Assembly: GCA_017534115.1 (NCBI GenBank)
Contig: JAFWDD010000053.1
Coordinates: 1-34,097, forward strand
DNA length: 34,097 nucleotides
DNA from: Bacillota bacterium
GTDB lineage: Bacteria > Bacillota > Clostridia > Lachnospirales > Anaerotignaceae
Direction of reading: 5' to 3'
Position 1 is the stretch's first letter; each line of letters opens with the position of its first letter. The notes under the pieces were generated by a model. The model was not told the DNA's origin and made no database searches. It saw nothing but the letters and a program-made list of their open reading frames with translations. Made by a program: the position numbers and the translations under genes. Shown in pieces: positions 27,867-32,976 of the stretch.

Positions 27867-28328
27867 TCAGCTGTTTTTCCGCTCCAGCTCCAGAAGACGC
27901 TCCTTCATTTCCAGACCCCATGCATAGCCCACAAGAGCTCCGCCCGCGCCAACAACCCTGTGGCAGGGAACAATTATGCACACGGGGTTTTTATTGTTTG
28001 CCATACCTACGGCTCTTGCCGCTTTGGGAGAGCCTATGGCTTTGGCGATCTCTCCGTAGGTTCTGGTTTCGCCGTAGGGAATTTCCAGCAGTGTCTCCCA
28101 TACCTTCAGCTGAAAAGGAGTACCCTCCAGCTTTACGGGAATGCTGAACGTTTTCCGCTTTCCTTCGAAATATTCCTCAAGCTGATTCAGGCACTTGCCT
28201 ATGAGATATGTTTTCAGACGCTTTCCGTCCAGATCCTCTGTTTCACCGAGATAAATCCTGGAAATTTCATTGTCCTCTTCGCACACTGTTATATTTATAC
28301 TGTCGATTTTTCGCGAATAATAGTACAT
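27867..28328 (-). CDS. ogt: Methylated-DNA-[protein]-cysteine S-methyltransferase
   Basis: 153-aa suicide DNA-repair protein that transfers the methyl group from O6-methylguanine to its own cysteine. The acceptor is C122 in VPCHRVVGAGG, preceded by the helix-turn-helix segment YGEIAKAIGSPKAARAVGMANNKN split around residues 91-114, with the arginine finger within KAARAVG. The short N-terminal domain fits Ogt/Ada-C type proteins. It begins 5 bp after the kinase gene and looks like the last member of that operon. Confidence 0.94.
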   Translation of the reverse strand: MYYYSRKIDSINITVCEEDNEISRIYLGETEDLDGKRLKTYLIGKCLNQLEEYFEGKRKTFSIPVKLEGTPFQLKVWETLLEIPYGETRTYGEIAKAIGSPKAARAVGMANNKNPVCIIVPCHRVVGAGGALVGYAWGLEMKERLLELERKNS

Positions 28329-28333
28329 TTATA

Positions 28334-29389
28334 TCACTTCTCCGTCAAAAAATAAAAATCCGCTTTGTCTTTTACGCCAAGCTTTGAAAAATACTCCTCT
28401 TCCAAAGGTATCCAGATTTTTTCAAATTTTTTCCAAAGCTCTTCCCCGCTCCGTTTCAGGATCCTTTCCCTCTGAAGCTCAGGCTTTATATCCAGAAATA
28501 CTTTCAAATCGTATTTATCCGCAAGCTTCGGGTGCATGGAATATACTCCCTCAACAATCGTCAGCGGAGTTTTTCTTATGGTCACAGCATCGCCGAAATC
28601 CTTTGTTTTGCAGGAATAGGGCTTGTATGAAAAGCCGTTTCCAAGGAAATTGAAGGCCTCTTTTTCAAATCTTTCGTAATAGACGTTTCCGCCCGGCTCC
28701 GCAAGCCTTTCGGGAGTTTTCATCTCCTCGGGCAGGAAAAAATCATCCATATGAACAACATCGCATTCGTACACAAATGCAAGCATCTCGGCCAAATCAC
28801 TCTTTCCGCTTCCGCTTCGGCCGTCTATTGCCATTATAAGACTGTCCTTTTTGGCAAGGCGCTTGTCTATCTCGGCAAAAAGTGTGAAATATCGGGCGAT
28901 TTCTTCTCTTACGAGCCTGTAATGAGGGTTATATCTCGCCTTGTATTCCATACTGTGGCCTATGGGTTCGAAGTCGTTTTCCTCCATGTATTCCAAAAAT
29001 CTGTCGATTTCATCGGGATAAACGGGAATCTCCTTATTTTCGGCGCATTGGCGCAGGATGTCAATCTTTTTCTCAAAGTCCGCCTCTCTGCCGGCTTTGC
29101 CTCTTCCGCTGAGATAAAAAATCCTGCAAAATGTGTCGAGGCTGATACCCAGCTCACGGATCTTTCCGATATTGGCCCGGCCAAGACCGTTGCCGATGGG
29201 CTCGAACAGCTCATCGCCTTCCCTGACGGGAGCGTTCCACTCCTCGGTGATGCTGTTTTTGGACTGCACTGTGCAGAAGCCGATGTGGGCGCCGCCGAAT
29301 TCGTTCTGATATATAAGCTTTATGAAATCCGCGGTCTGCATTGCGGGACGCTTTCTGTATTCATTTATGAGAATTTCCTTAAGCTCCAT
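28334..29389 (-). CDS. Uridine-kinase-like P-loop kinase with an N-terminal extra domain
   Basis: 351 aa in two parts. Residues 1-180 form an N-terminal region I do not recognise, containing QTADFIKLIYQNEFGGAHIG and IGHSMEYKARYNPHYRLV. The C-terminal part is a uridine kinase/phosphoribulokinase-like domain: Walker A GRSGSGKS at 190-197, VVHMDDFFLP (substrate/Mg acid), IVEGVYSMH (Walker-B-like) and a lid region near LQRERILKRSGEE. Uridine kinases are normally about 210 aa, so the N-terminal half is an addition. The substrate could be a nucleoside or another small alcohol. An ECF transporter S-component is encoded 5 bp upstream, suggesting that it phosphorylates what that protein imports. Confidence 0.8.
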   Translation of the reverse strand: MELKEILINEYRKRPAMQTADFIKLIYQNEFGGAHIGFCTVQSKNSITEEWNAPVREGDELFEPIGNGLGRANIGKIRELGISLDTFCRIFYLSGRGKAGREADFEKKIDILRQCAENKEIPVYPDEIDRFLEYMEENDFEPIGHSMEYKARYNPHYRLVREEIARYFTLFAEIDKRLAKKDSLIMAIDGRSGSGKSDLAEMLAFVYECDVVHMDDFFLPEEMKTPERLAEPGGNVYYERFEKEAFNFLGNGFSYKPYSCKTKDFGDAVTIRKTPLTIVEGVYSMHPKLADKYDLKVFLDIKPELQRERILKRSGEELWKKFEKIWIPLEEEYFSKLGVKDKADFYFLTEK

Positions 29390-29394
29390 GATTT

Positions 29395-29946
29395 TTACCT
29401 TTCTTTCCGCTCAGCTCCGCGAAATATATATTTTTTAGCGGCCATAACAATAGGCGGAATTATTATAAGCTGAAGGATTATGCCGGGAACCGCGGTCAGA
29501 TATGCTCCCTGCATGAAAGCCTGCCATGTAAAAGGGTTTTCGGTAAATGTGTAAAGCCACAGGCTTACCGCTCCCCACACAAATCTTCCCAGAATCATTG
29601 CCAGAATGAGGGATACATATATAAACGGTCTTTTTTTGGGGAGTTTTCCGAAAAATAATCCCGTAAAACCGCCGTATGCCAGAAGCTCGAACGCCATTGC
29701 CACAGCCGTAGGAAACATAGGCGGCATGGAAAGGGTTGCCGACCTTAAAAGAGGCGTTATGAAGCCTACCGCCATCCCGTAAATTGGTCCGCAGATGAAT
29801 CCGCAGAGCAGTACCGGTATGTGCATGGGCAGAAGCATTCTTCCGATTTCGGGTATCTGTCCCGTGAAAAAGGGCAGTATCATTCCAAGCGCTATGAAAA
29901 GTCCCGAGTATGCAATTTTTCTTGCCGAAAATTTTTTAGATTTCAT
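29395..29946 (-). CDS. ECF transporter substrate-binding (S) component
   Basis: 183-aa membrane protein with about six hydrophobic segments, the size and pattern of ECF-type vitamin transporter S-components. KIAYSGLFIALGMILPFFTG is the characteristic first helix, followed by LLPMHIPVLLCGFICGPIYGMAVGF and a Gly/Pro-rich second half. It needs the shared EcfA/A'/T energising module, which is not in the window. Substrate is uncertain. The start is ATG 29946 behind AAAGGAG; the longer frame upstream translates that site. First gene of an apparent operon with the kinase and ogt. Confidence 0.85.
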   Translation of the reverse strand: MKSKKFSARKIAYSGLFIALGMILPFFTGQIPEIGRMLLPMHIPVLLCGFICGPIYGMAVGFITPLLRSATLSMPPMFPTAVAMAFELLAYGGFTGLFFGKLPKKRPFIYVSLILAMILGRFVWGAVSLWLYTFTENPFTWQAFMQGAYLTAVPGIILQLIIIPPIVMAAKKYIFRGAERKER

Positions 29947-30020
29947 AATTTTTTCTCCTTTAGTATAACATAACATAAAATTCCGCCTGTGAAAAGAGAA
30001 TTAATTCCCGAAAACAGACA

Positions 30021-30062: not shown

Positions 30063-30890
30063 TTATTTTGCTGTTGAATTTTTTATAATGCCGATTAATG
30101 TGAATATAACGAAAGCCGCTAAATTCACCACAACAACACCTGCTCCGGCAGGAACGCCTTTCGTGAAGGAAATTACAATTCCGATAATGAAGCAGACTAT
30201 GGAAACAATAACCCCGCAGATAGTGACGGATTTGAAGCTTTTGCACAGCCGCATGGATGTAAGGGCCGGAAATACGATTAAGCTGGAGATCAAAAGAGCT
30301 CCCATGAGACGCATTCCAACCACCACGATTACCGCCGTCAGCACAGCGATAAGGCTGTTGTAAACTCCCGTTCTGACTCCTGTAGCCTTGGCGAAATCCT
30401 CATCGAAGGTCACCGCGAAAATCCTGTTGTAGAATAGAATATACAGGATTATCACCGCCACGGAGCAGATTACGCTTATAATGACGTCATTTCCGCTAAC
30501 TGCAAGGATCGAGCCGAACATATAATTATATATATCGGTATTTATGCCCACAGACGATGAAACGATTATTACGCCTATGGCCAGCGCGCTGCTGGATATG
30601 AGCGCTACTGCCGCGTCGCCTTTTATTTTGGCGTTTGAGCTGATCCTCAGAAGCAGAAAAGCCGCCGCAACTACTATGGGTATGGCAACCGCAAGGGGTG
30701 AAGCGTTCAGAGCCAACGCTACGGCGAACGCGCCGAATCCCACATGGGAAAGGCCGTCGCCTATCATAGAATACCTCTTAAGAACAAGGCTTACCCCCAG
30801 AAGAGCGGAGCAGAACGCGATAAGTGTTCCCGCAGCCAGCGCACGGACTATGAACGTATATGAGAAAAGCTCTCCGAATAAAGCTGTCAC
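30063..30890 (-). CDS. znuB: Metal ABC transporter permease (ZnuB-like)
   Basis: 275-aa ABC-3 family permease with about eight membrane segments, forming the channel for zinc (or manganese/iron) uptake. VSLVLKRYSMIGDGLSHVGFGAFAVAL holds the conserved loop near the second helix, and VRTGVYNSLIAVLTAVIVVVGMRLMGALLISSLIVFPAL is split over two helices with the family's GALL-SS-FPA signature. The start is GTG 30890, overlapping the ATPase stop by 4 bp (GTGA), with GGGAGGTG upstream. Last gene of the metal-uptake operon. Confidence 0.9.
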   Translation of the reverse strand: MTALFGELFSYTFIVRALAAGTLIAFCSALLGVSLVLKRYSMIGDGLSHVGFGAFAVALALNASPLAVAIPIVVAAAFLLLRISSNAKIKGDAAVALISSSALAIGVIIVSSSVGINTDIYNYMFGSILAVSGNDVIISVICSVAVIILYILFYNRIFAVTFDEDFAKATGVRTGVYNSLIAVLTAVIVVVGMRLMGALLISSLIVFPALTSMRLCKSFKSVTICGVIVSIVCFIIGIVISFTKGVPAGAGVVVVNLAAFVIFTLIGIIKNSTAK

Positions 30891-31591
30891 GGCAGGTCAC
30901 CTCCCGTAAGTCTCCGGTAGGAATCGGTTTTCAGGTATTCCTTTGTGGAGCCGAAAAACTCGATTTCCTTGTCTATGTGAAGTATCTTCTTGCCGTTTCG
31001 CAATGCGCCGTTTATGTCATGGGAAATCATGATGACCGTAACGCCTTCGTTGCTGTTCAGGTCCGATATTATATTGTAAAACTCCGCAGATGCCGCAGGG
31101 TCCAGCCCGGACGCAGGCTCATCCAGAAAGAGGACTTTGCTGTCCGCGCAGACAGCTCTGGCAAGGAGTATCCTCTGCTTCTGTCCCACGGAAAGGGAAG
31201 AAAAAGAAGCCTTGTCGTACTCGGAAAGATTGAGTTTTTCAAGAATTCCCTTTACCTTCTCGTTCTGGGCTTTGCTGAAAAAGAGCTTCCTCCCAAGAGA
31301 ACCCGTAAATCCGGACATAACTACCTCATGCACCGTAGCGGGAAAATCCTTCTGGAGCACCATAAACTGAGGAACATAGCCGATTTTGCTCTTCATGCCC
31401 TTTTCGTATGTAACCTTGCCAGAGGTTGCGGGAATAAGGCCCAAAAGCCCCTTTACAAAAGTAGACTTGCCCGCGCCGTTTCTTCCCAGAATGCAGATAT
31501 AGTCCCCTTCTTCAACCGAAAAAGAGGCATTTTCAACTACGGTCATGCCTTCGTAGCCCAGACATAAATTTTCACATTCCAAAACTTTCAT
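30887..31591 (-). CDS. znuC: Metal ABC transporter ATP-binding protein (ZnuC-like)
   Basis: 234-aa ABC ATPase energising the permease encoded by the next gene. Walker A GRNGAGKST is at residues 36-44, Q-loop YVPQF, ABC signature LSVGQKQRILLARA, Walker B VLFLDEP and the switch His in MISHDING. The ATG follows the binding-protein stop without a spacer, so translation is probably coupled. Metal specificity is inferred from the linked binding protein and regulator. Confidence 0.92.
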   Translation of the reverse strand: MKVLECENLCLGYEGMTVVENASFSVEEGDYICILGRNGAGKSTFVKGLLGLIPATSGKVTYEKGMKSKIGYVPQFMVLQKDFPATVHEVVMSGFTGSLGRKLFFSKAQNEKVKGILEKLNLSEYDKASFSSLSVGQKQRILLARAVCADSKVLFLDEPASGLDPAASAEFYNIISDLNSNEGVTVIMISHDINGALRNGKKILHIDKEIEFFGSTKEYLKTDSYRRLTGGDLP

Positions 31592-32551
31592 TTAACTCAA
31601 ACCCTTCTTCAGGTTCTCCACATTTTTCTCCATCAGGTCAAAATATGTGACTCCCGCATCGAAATCCTCCGCGGATATGTTGTGGCAGGAATGAAGGACA
31701 AGCTTTTCCGCGCCGGTCTCCTCGCAGATTATATCCGCAACTCTGCCTGTACTCAGCTCCTCATAATACACCACGGGAACATTTCTTTCCCTGACTGTTT
31801 CTATAATTGACGAGATCTTTGCCGCGGAAGGCTCCGATTCCGACGAACAGGATTCATATGCCGAAACATAATCCAGTCCGTATTCCTTAACAAAATAATT
31901 AAATGCGAATCTTCCGCCGAAAACAATGAATTTATCCGATGACGCGGAAACGATGTCCCGTATCTCGCCGTCCAGAGACGTGAGCTTTGCAATTACCCCA
32001 TCGTAATTTTCCTTGTAATAATCCGCGTTTTCCGAATCTATCTCACAGAGAGTATTGTATATGTTTTCCGCCATTTTCATGGCAAGCACAGGATCCGTCC
32101 AGATATGGGGATCCACATTATGCTCGTGTCCCTCATGTTCTTCATTGTCTTCATGGTGTTCGTTGTATTCTTCAAGATTTATGCCTTCGCTGACATCCAG
32201 CACATACACTTCTTCCGGAAGAACATCGATTATGCTCTCGGCCCATGTTTCCATATACCGGCCTGTGTATATGAAGAGATCGCATTTCCCAGCCTCTACA
32301 ATGTCAGTAGGCGAAGGCTCATAGCTGTGGCTTTCCGCGCCCGGCGGAAGAAGCATGGTGACCTCGGCCTTGTCTCCACCTATGGCTTTTGCGAAATCAT
32401 ACTGGGGAAAAAGTGTGGCTGTTATTCTGATTTTGTCCGTTTCACCATTTCCGCCTGCGCTTTCCGGAGCTTTTTCCGCTCCGCAGGCAGTGAACATAAG
32501 AATGCTCACGGCAAACAGTATTAATATGCTTATTATCTTTCGTTTTTTCAT
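31592..32551 (-). CDS. znuA: Metal ABC transporter substrate-binding lipoprotein (ZnuA-like)
   Basis: 319-aa cluster 9 (ZnuA/TroA) binding protein. A signal peptide ends in the lipobox FTAC, so it is a lipoprotein on the outer membrane face. ESHSYEPSP supplies the first metal His and DPHIW the second. Between them is an acidic His-rich loop (EHHEDNEEHEGHEHN), typical of zinc-type members. The segment that usually carries the third ligand (His or Glu before A-F) reads FGGRFAFNYF, with Arg at that position, and the C-terminal ligand region reads SCHNISAEDFDAG. The start is ATG 32551, overlapping the regulator stop by one base (TGATG). Zinc is favoured, though not proven. Confidence 0.88.
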   Translation of the reverse strand: MKKRKIISILILFAVSILMFTACGAEKAPESAGGNGETDKIRITATLFPQYDFAKAIGGDKAEVTMLLPPGAESHSYEPSPTDIVEAGKCDLFIYTGRYMETWAESIIDVLPEEVYVLDVSEGINLEEYNEHHEDNEEHEGHEHNVDPHIWTDPVLAMKMAENIYNTLCEIDSENADYYKENYDGVIAKLTSLDGEIRDIVSASSDKFIVFGGRFAFNYFVKEYGLDYVSAYESCSSESEPSAAKISSIIETVRERNVPVVYYEELSTGRVADIICEETGAEKLVLHSCHNISAEDFDAGVTYFDLMEKNVENLKKGLS

Positions 32552-32976
32552 CACGCGTTCACCTTCTTTTTGGCGGCGCATTCATCGCAGATGCCGTATA
32601 GCACGGTTTTTGACCTGTCTATGGTGAATTTGTGGTCCTCGTAAACATGGCGCGCGATGTCGTTCAGATGGTCGCACTCCAGATGTATGAACCTGCCGCA
32701 TTCCACGCATTTAAGGTGAAAATGCTCGTCGCAGTCATTGCATTCCACGTACTGGAAGCAAGCGCCGTTTTTCTCTTCCGTCACAAAACGCCTTGCCCGG
32801 CCTTCCTCCACCAGCTTGTCAATGTATCTGTAAACCGTGGTCTTGCCCACGGATATGCCCCGTTCCTTCAGGTCAAACACGATTTCGTCCACCGTTACGT
32901 GTCTTTCTTTGTTTTCTATGAGAAAATCCAGGATTATCTCCCTCTGTTTTGTCTTATAACCTTTTGATGCCGTCAT
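32551..32976 (-). CDS. Fur-family metal-responsive repressor (probable Zur)
   Basis: 141-aa Fur superfamily regulator. An N-terminal winged helix (VTVDEIVFDLKERGISVGKTTVYRYIDKL) binds DNA. The metal/dimerisation domain has FHLKCVECGRFIHLEC and a C-terminal GICDEC, the two CxxC pairs (C90/C93, C130/C133) of the structural zinc site. It leads an operon with znuA-znuC-znuB, which favours the zinc-sensing Zur type over Fur or PerR. The ATG has GAGGTG 7 nt upstream. A 7-1-7 palindrome between the promoter and start suggests autoregulation of the whole operon. Confidence 0.88.
   Translation of the reverse strand: MTASKGYKTKQREIILDFLIENKERHVTVDEIVFDLKERGISVGKTTVYRYIDKLVEEGRARRFVTEEKNGACFQYVECNDCDEHFHLKCVECGRFIHLECDHLNDIARHVYEDHKFTIDRSKTVLYGICDECAAKKKVNA

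Follow-up and report, generated by a model that had tools for sequence, protein, structure and literature searches.

What does an ECF S-component bring into the cell when its gene runs directly into that of a kinase, and what does the unrecognised sequence at the front of that kinase add? The pair that raises this question lies in a Bacillota bacterium of the family Anaerotignaceae (contig JAFWDD010000053.1, assembly GCA_017534115.1), on the stretch of 34,097 nucleotides that was analysed as a whole and that we call the window. We refer to the S-component as S and to the N- and C-terminal parts of the kinase protein as N and K. The first-pass annotation had placed the two genes 5 bp apart and described the kinase as a P-loop domain behind about 180 unrecognised residues; the open reading frames bear out the first statement (Table 1), and for the second the P-loop begins at about residue 187, behind approximately 170 residues that find no match in the libraries searched. 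For S, the ATG at 29946 is preceded by a good ribosome-binding site (AAAGGAG), and the start of a longer ORF at 29976 is less likely. Scans for promoters and terminators around the gene pair gave nothing above chance numbers. The next gene downstream, ogt (27867-28328; methylated-DNA cysteine methyltransferase), begins 5 bp past the kinase stop and may be co-transcribed with the N-K gene; it recurs as a neighbour of N-K in none of the other 80 regions compared. Upstream on the same strand (30063-32976) are a zinc/manganese-type ABC importer (binding protein, ATPase and permease) and a Fur-family regulator.

Table 1. Coordinates of the S and N-K genes and their parts in the window.
Feature	Position	Strand	Details
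ECF S-component gene	29395..29946	-	183 aa; PF12822 match
N-K kinase gene	28334..29389	-	351 aa; 5 bp between S stop and kinase start
Ribosome-binding site of S gene, AGGAG	29955..29959	-	read from sequence
N domain, residues 1-170	28880..29389	-	31-sequence alignment; stand-alone copies; no library match
K domain, residues 171-351 + stop	28334..28879	-	PRK06547 62.6 bits; profile matches; stand-alone copies adjoining S
Walker A/P-loop AIDGRSGSGKS, residues 187-197	28799..28831	-	G190, G195 and K196 invariant in 27 fusions
D215, invariant Asp of HMDDFF motif	28745..28747	-	invariant in 43 K sequences

Like the known ECF S-components of PF12822 (RibU, FolT, ThiT, PanT, BioY, HmpT/PdxU2), S scores well above the cut-off of that family (E=2.6e-19, 70.3 bits against 30.7) and is predicted to share the fold. 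The AlphaFold2 model (from 3 sequences, pLDDT 69) found only ECF S-components at ranks 1-20 in VIA-align (Z 9.8-17.1), with TmRibU first (Z 17.1, 2.7 A over 163 residues) and PanT, FolT, BioY, HmpT and ThiT following at Z about 15-16. By its modelled fold, then, S is an S-component, closest to RibU. Because this fold is common to all S-components, the structural rank gives no cargo assignment. S does not fall clearly within any family of known substrate, a point on which the first-pass annotation had made its reading depend: none of the substrate-assigned NCBIfam models reaches its cut-off, with 35.5 bits for the FolT family TIGR04518 (cut-off 60), 19.2 for ThiT TIGR02357 (108.45) and 13.5 for the riboflavin model PRK13661 (99). 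In an alignment of 44 members the S family has invariants of its own (P40-M41-H42, E87, Y91-G92 and G120-R121), and these, together with its partners (N, K, TM1506 or a methyltransferase; see below), set it apart from the known S-components. We think it unlikely that the cargo of S is one of the classic vitamins riboflavin, folate and thiamine, taken up by a divergent importer, with K and N as a parallel salvage step. That idea can draw on the TmRibU match, on the riboflavin-type Pfam model PF07155, which S passes (34.7 bits, cut-off 26.7), and on the FolT model, which 42 of the 44 family members match, the top count among NCBIfam models; but the PF12822 score is twice that of PF07155, FolT and RibU chains from the PDB match the S profile only weakly (E 0.002-0.06), and the rank in a shared fold says little. 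The RNA evidence is also against it: Rfam models found only tRNAs in the window and at 40 related loci of 2-4 kb, and FMN, THF and TPP riboswitches were seen at none of the 40. Our best reading is that S belongs to an orphan, uncharacterised S-component family.

A scan of the genome contigs with the single sequence gave one weak kinase match. K shares with uridine kinases, NRK and the PRK06547 kinases the P-loop, an MDDFF-type motif with an invariant Asp and an EG.YS motif; it differs from them in scoring below all curated cut-offs (62.6 bits against 173 for PRK06547, 26.8 against 220.3 for Udk TIGR00235 and, marginally, 21.7 against 22 for PF00485), in having its own C-terminal WIPxExxY, and in being fused to N or paired with S. 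Against the PDB, the K profile matched 1rz3, a hypothetical kinase, best (E 4e-17), followed by uridine kinases (3e-14 to 8e-12) and NRK1 (7e-10). Among the positions invariant in the family are the Gly and Lys of the P-loop, D215 in the MDDFF motif (a putative catalytic base, by analogy with NRK and uridine kinase), E280-G281 and a family-specific P-x-E-x-x-Y close to the C-terminus. These matches and motifs place K in the uridine/riboside kinase group, as a kinase of small molecules.

The first-pass annotation had also held that the pair should be conserved outside its source genome, and this stood up: of 78 K/N loci found across the order, 52 have an S gene no more than 1 kb away, 50 of these on the same strand; for another 16 the S gene is at a different place in the genome, and the remaining 10 are in genomes with no strong S match. 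These loci come from 295 genomes, 104 of which contain the full N-K protein or part of it (E up to 1e-3); a strong K was found in 72 genomes, at 73 loci, and the S family, counted in its strong range (E below 1e-34), in 95. S matches at E up to 1e-3 bring the total to 205 genomes, and the weaker ones, probably mostly other S-components, were left out of the counts. Of the 77 genomes with K or N, 67 also have S; 28 have S only, 10 K or N only, and 190 neither, a co-occurrence (Fisher p 1e-32) in which related genomes are not independent. In a set of 81 regions that includes the window and was picked from the stronger matches rather than from all of them, S lies at most 200 bp away on the same strand for 52 of 80 N/K genes (upstream for 50, downstream for 2) and on the opposite strand for 1; no S was counted for 27, one of which (L089) does carry S, displaced by an over-extended ORF. 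In Subdoligranulum variabile, N-K and S are likewise together, with S second. The adjacency of S and the kinase is far beyond chance. That it might be a chromosomal accident passed on by common descent strikes us as extremely unlikely: some neighbourhoods are indeed syntenic within a family (for example dapA-dapB-(S)-NK, with genes of 609 and 371 aa next in each), but the flanking genes differ across most families while S and N/K stay together, genes are fused, and S is re-paired with other modules. Other neighbours, such as a luxR-type regulator, GGDEF, YetF, a Cys/Met enzyme and RecO, recur too rarely to count as partners. As for known S-components, an ECF ATPase-ATPase-T block can stand directly before S-N(K), in 7 of the 81 regions, all from one genome family; one is clipped by a contig end, and the components were named by profile in 2 of the 7.

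Two side observations concern where these genes occur. One genome (G066, contigs C19 and C5; L082) has an N-K fusion plus a separate K that adjoins its S gene. In IMG/VR phage contigs (L216:125-634, L217:353-871 and L218:3-104) an S-family gene stands directly before that of the major head protein (phrog_422), which is followed by tail genes (tail sheath phrog_1480); two of these S sequences are 54% and 50% identical to S of the window, and the third, in L218, comprises only the last S residues. A prophage seems to carry an S-component gene. Scans of viral contigs gave no match for N or N-K.

The N-terminal segment (residues 1-170) matched nothing above threshold in Pfam, NCBIfam, PHROG or the PDB sequences. 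An alignment of 31 sequences (the N parts of 27 fusions plus 4 stand-alone copies) nevertheless contains 12 invariant positions, D21, K24, Q28, H35, E50, E63, R71, F91, H145, P155, Y157 and R158, and P15, G32 and S146 are nearly so. Since the aligned sequences are only 19-35% identical to N of the window, this invariance implies that a handful of positions, most of them polar, are under strong selection, and in the alignment the polar ones (D, K, Q, H, E, E, R, H, Y and R) look catalytic. Within the order, 33 of the 295 genomes contain N, and 5 of these 33 lack K; among genomes drawn phylum-wide the figure is 34 of 398. A separate gene for N alone is seen in 20 regions, with S adjoining in 11 and no S nearby in 9.

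Beside S we see three architectures: the N-K fusion, K alone and N alone. In the K tree, built from 60 domains of which 45 are fused and 15 stand alone, at least 3 switches between NK and K-only are needed on well-supported branches, and 7 by parsimony. One family (f94) documents the loss of K: G377 has a full N-K, and G446 and G521 keep an N 75-76% identical, with K cut to about 43 residues and, in G446, a broken P-loop. Between the two K-less genes N has a dN of 0.14 and a dS of 0.51 (dN/dS about 0.28), and the adjoining S genes have a dN of 0.06 and a dS of 0.50. As N, like the S beside it, is still under purifying selection after the loss of K, and S and K occur elsewhere without N, N must have an independent function. 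Sequence comparison makes N a real and separable domain family, and a new one by the libraries searched.

We infer that this function is enzymatic. N could instead be a non-catalytic regulatory or docking domain that senses the compound or ties the kinase or the ECF ATPases to S, leaving the chemistry to K; we consider this the less probable option, but one to be taken seriously. It would explain why N is mostly found beside or fused to another part and why S retains N where K is lost, and AlphaFold2 predicts N on its own to be helical, albeit in a poor model from a single sequence (pLDDT 47.5). However, that 12 residues, polar for the most part, are strictly invariant across 31 diverged sequences is more what one expects of an active site than of a surface for docking, and in 9 of 20 N-only regions N stands with no S nearby.

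The kinase is only one of several partners of this S family, and to that extent the pairing proposed in the first-pass annotation was too narrow, although the pair itself is conserved. Of the 28 genomes with S but neither K nor N, we inspected the S loci of 21. In two of the loci TM1506/DUF1893 (PF08973) is fused to S in one ORF (L232:4461-5474 and L234:4573-5541), and in two others (L233 and L237) it adjoins S. TM1506 is present in 15 of the 28 S-only genomes as against 2 of 40 K/N genomes (p 7e-6), and in 1 of 12 without a strong S; 11 of the 18 TM1506 genes lie beside or within the S gene. In G072 the S-TM1506 gene follows dapB (identified by profile), the slot that S-NK or NK occupies in its family relatives. 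TM1506 thus partners relatives of this S family as a neighbour or as a fusion, and its sequence is unrelated to N and to K. A class I methyltransferase adjoins five further S genes (L219-L221, L226 and L235; profile check on two). A tree of S sequences puts all four TM1506-linked members into a sister branch with 9 rows, and 4 of the 5 methyltransferase-linked members inside the N/K branch; given this position, the TM1506 link may concern a related but different cargo.

Three S genes of one genus (L223, L224 and L227) are next to CbiM-CbiQ and an ECF-type ATPase. There, and in L096, where K is also present, S is in line with CbiM-PDGLE, CbiQ and the ATPase, giving two S-type subunits per cobalt-type ECF operon. 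DUF3842, a small protein with a glycine-rich start, is encoded within five genes in 14 of the 81 regions, and 8 of 30 DUF3842 loci have S, N or K at a distance of about 1.5 kb or less; it is not enriched with K (22 of 43 genomes with K and 18 of 37 without). Its occurrences near S, N or K, which span several families, are L065, L066, L071, L077, L094, L096, L153, L154, L159, L162, L163, L165, L166, L168 and L171. In L065, a presumed 151-aa neighbour gene proved to be antisense to DUF3842 and was discarded, and our literature search returned no paper mentioning the domain. An aldo/keto reductase recurs near S, K or N across several families, in L078, L081, L100, L179, L183, L233 and L234, sometimes in the same operon, and the copy in L233 bears a 4Fe-4S tail.

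What the cargo might be was approached through pathway markers in 80 genomes, all at least 90% complete, 43 with K and 37 without, a small panel in which few families dominate. One passage of PMC6593275 reports PdxK missing in 116 B6 auxotrophs and CoaBC missing in some Clostridiales, and these gaps prompted the PdxK and CoaBC tests. CoaBC is present in 18 of the 43 genomes with K and 28 of the 37 without, and ThiD-like proteins in 17 and 27, respectively; these are the only two nominal differences, and neither persists once genomes of the window's own family are excluded (p 0.33 and p 1). PdxK-like proteins were found in 16 of 43 and 15 of 37, with PF08543 matches divided between ThiD and PdxK by score; the match in G189 (E 3.9e-16) lies outside the PdxK-like set. 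NadA was found in 11 of 43 and 9 of 37. For CoaBC, PdxK, ThiD and NadA this panel of 80 genomes therefore reveals no lineage-independent association with K, which we regard as weak negatives. Replacement of PdxK and a pantetheine shunt accordingly find no support as general answers, there being no marker association with K outside the window's family.

Importers whose genes adjoin that of the first enzyme for their cargo have precedents in two other S-component/kinase pairs, PdxU with PdxK and CblT with CblS. Their kinases presumably belong to families other than that of K, and S-N/K differs from both pairs in its extra N domain. CobS occurs in 20 of the 43 genomes with K, one being that of the window, and in 23 of the 37 without; as alpha-ribazole salvage of the CblT/CblS type needs this cobalamin synthase and no CobS was seen in 23 of the 43, alpha-ribazole was rejected as the general cargo.

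A more specific proposal makes nicotinamide riboside, or another pyridine nucleoside related to it, the cargo of S, with K as a riboside kinase giving NMN-type products and TM1506 contributing NAD-linked chemistry. K does resemble NRK1 among solved structures, no NadA was found in the genome of the window, and an excerpt of one review describes the TM1506 superfamily as having a deaminase-like fold and auto-ADP-ribosylation (PMC8946771). Against this, 1rz3 and the uridine kinases are closer to K by profile than NRK1 is, NadA is equally common with and without K, and TM1506 occurs mostly in genomes without K or N, together with the sister branch of S. We regard nicotinamide riboside as quite unlikely.

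The account that we favour, and on balance think probable, is that S imports a micronutrient, K traps it by phosphorylation and N adds a second conversion. The cargo would be a single small micronutrient, most likely a nucleoside- or vitamin-like one, whose hydroxyl can be phosphorylated; S would bind it and import it with the ECF module; K would phosphorylate the imported compound, trapping it in metabolism and starting its use; and N would be a second enzyme, converting the same compound or its phosphate. The N-K fusion in the window would then be a two-step intake station encoded directly after the importer gene. An uptake-and-trap pair was what the first-pass annotation had suggested, and the gene architecture (adjacency, fusions and co-occurrence) supports it; for the chemistry, we infer both the action of N and K on what S imports and the kind of compound that this would be. 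Counted against the two-step scheme are the lack of any riboswitch at the loci scanned, the lack of a K-linked pathway marker in the panel, and the 10 of 78 K/N loci without a strong S; the repeated loss of N or K would also be odd if both were obligatory steps of one pathway, and N, whose AlphaFold2 model failed, could have a structural or regulatory role. As a more speculative and rather doubtful extension, S may be a common port for a nucleoside-like micronutrient served by at least four exchangeable modules (K, the N enzyme, TM1506 and the methyltransferase), some of them fused to one another or to S itself, with N founding a new enzyme family.

We found no description of the S-kinase pair in the literature, most subscription papers lying outside the coverage of the search. 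The best reading of the locus as a whole is that of an ECF S-component with dedicated, exchangeable processing modules, one of which is a new domain family. ECF S-components with orphan substrates are a standing gap in bacterial nutrition, and a dedicated, conserved kinase offers a direct handle on this one, as the substrate of K is probably the cargo of S. N, for its part, is an unannotated family with a clear set of invariants that turns up in roughly one in ten of the genomes sampled from the order and from the phylum, and the S-TM1506 fusion provides a metabolic context for a family that the review excerpt describes only as ADP-ribosylating (PMC8946771).
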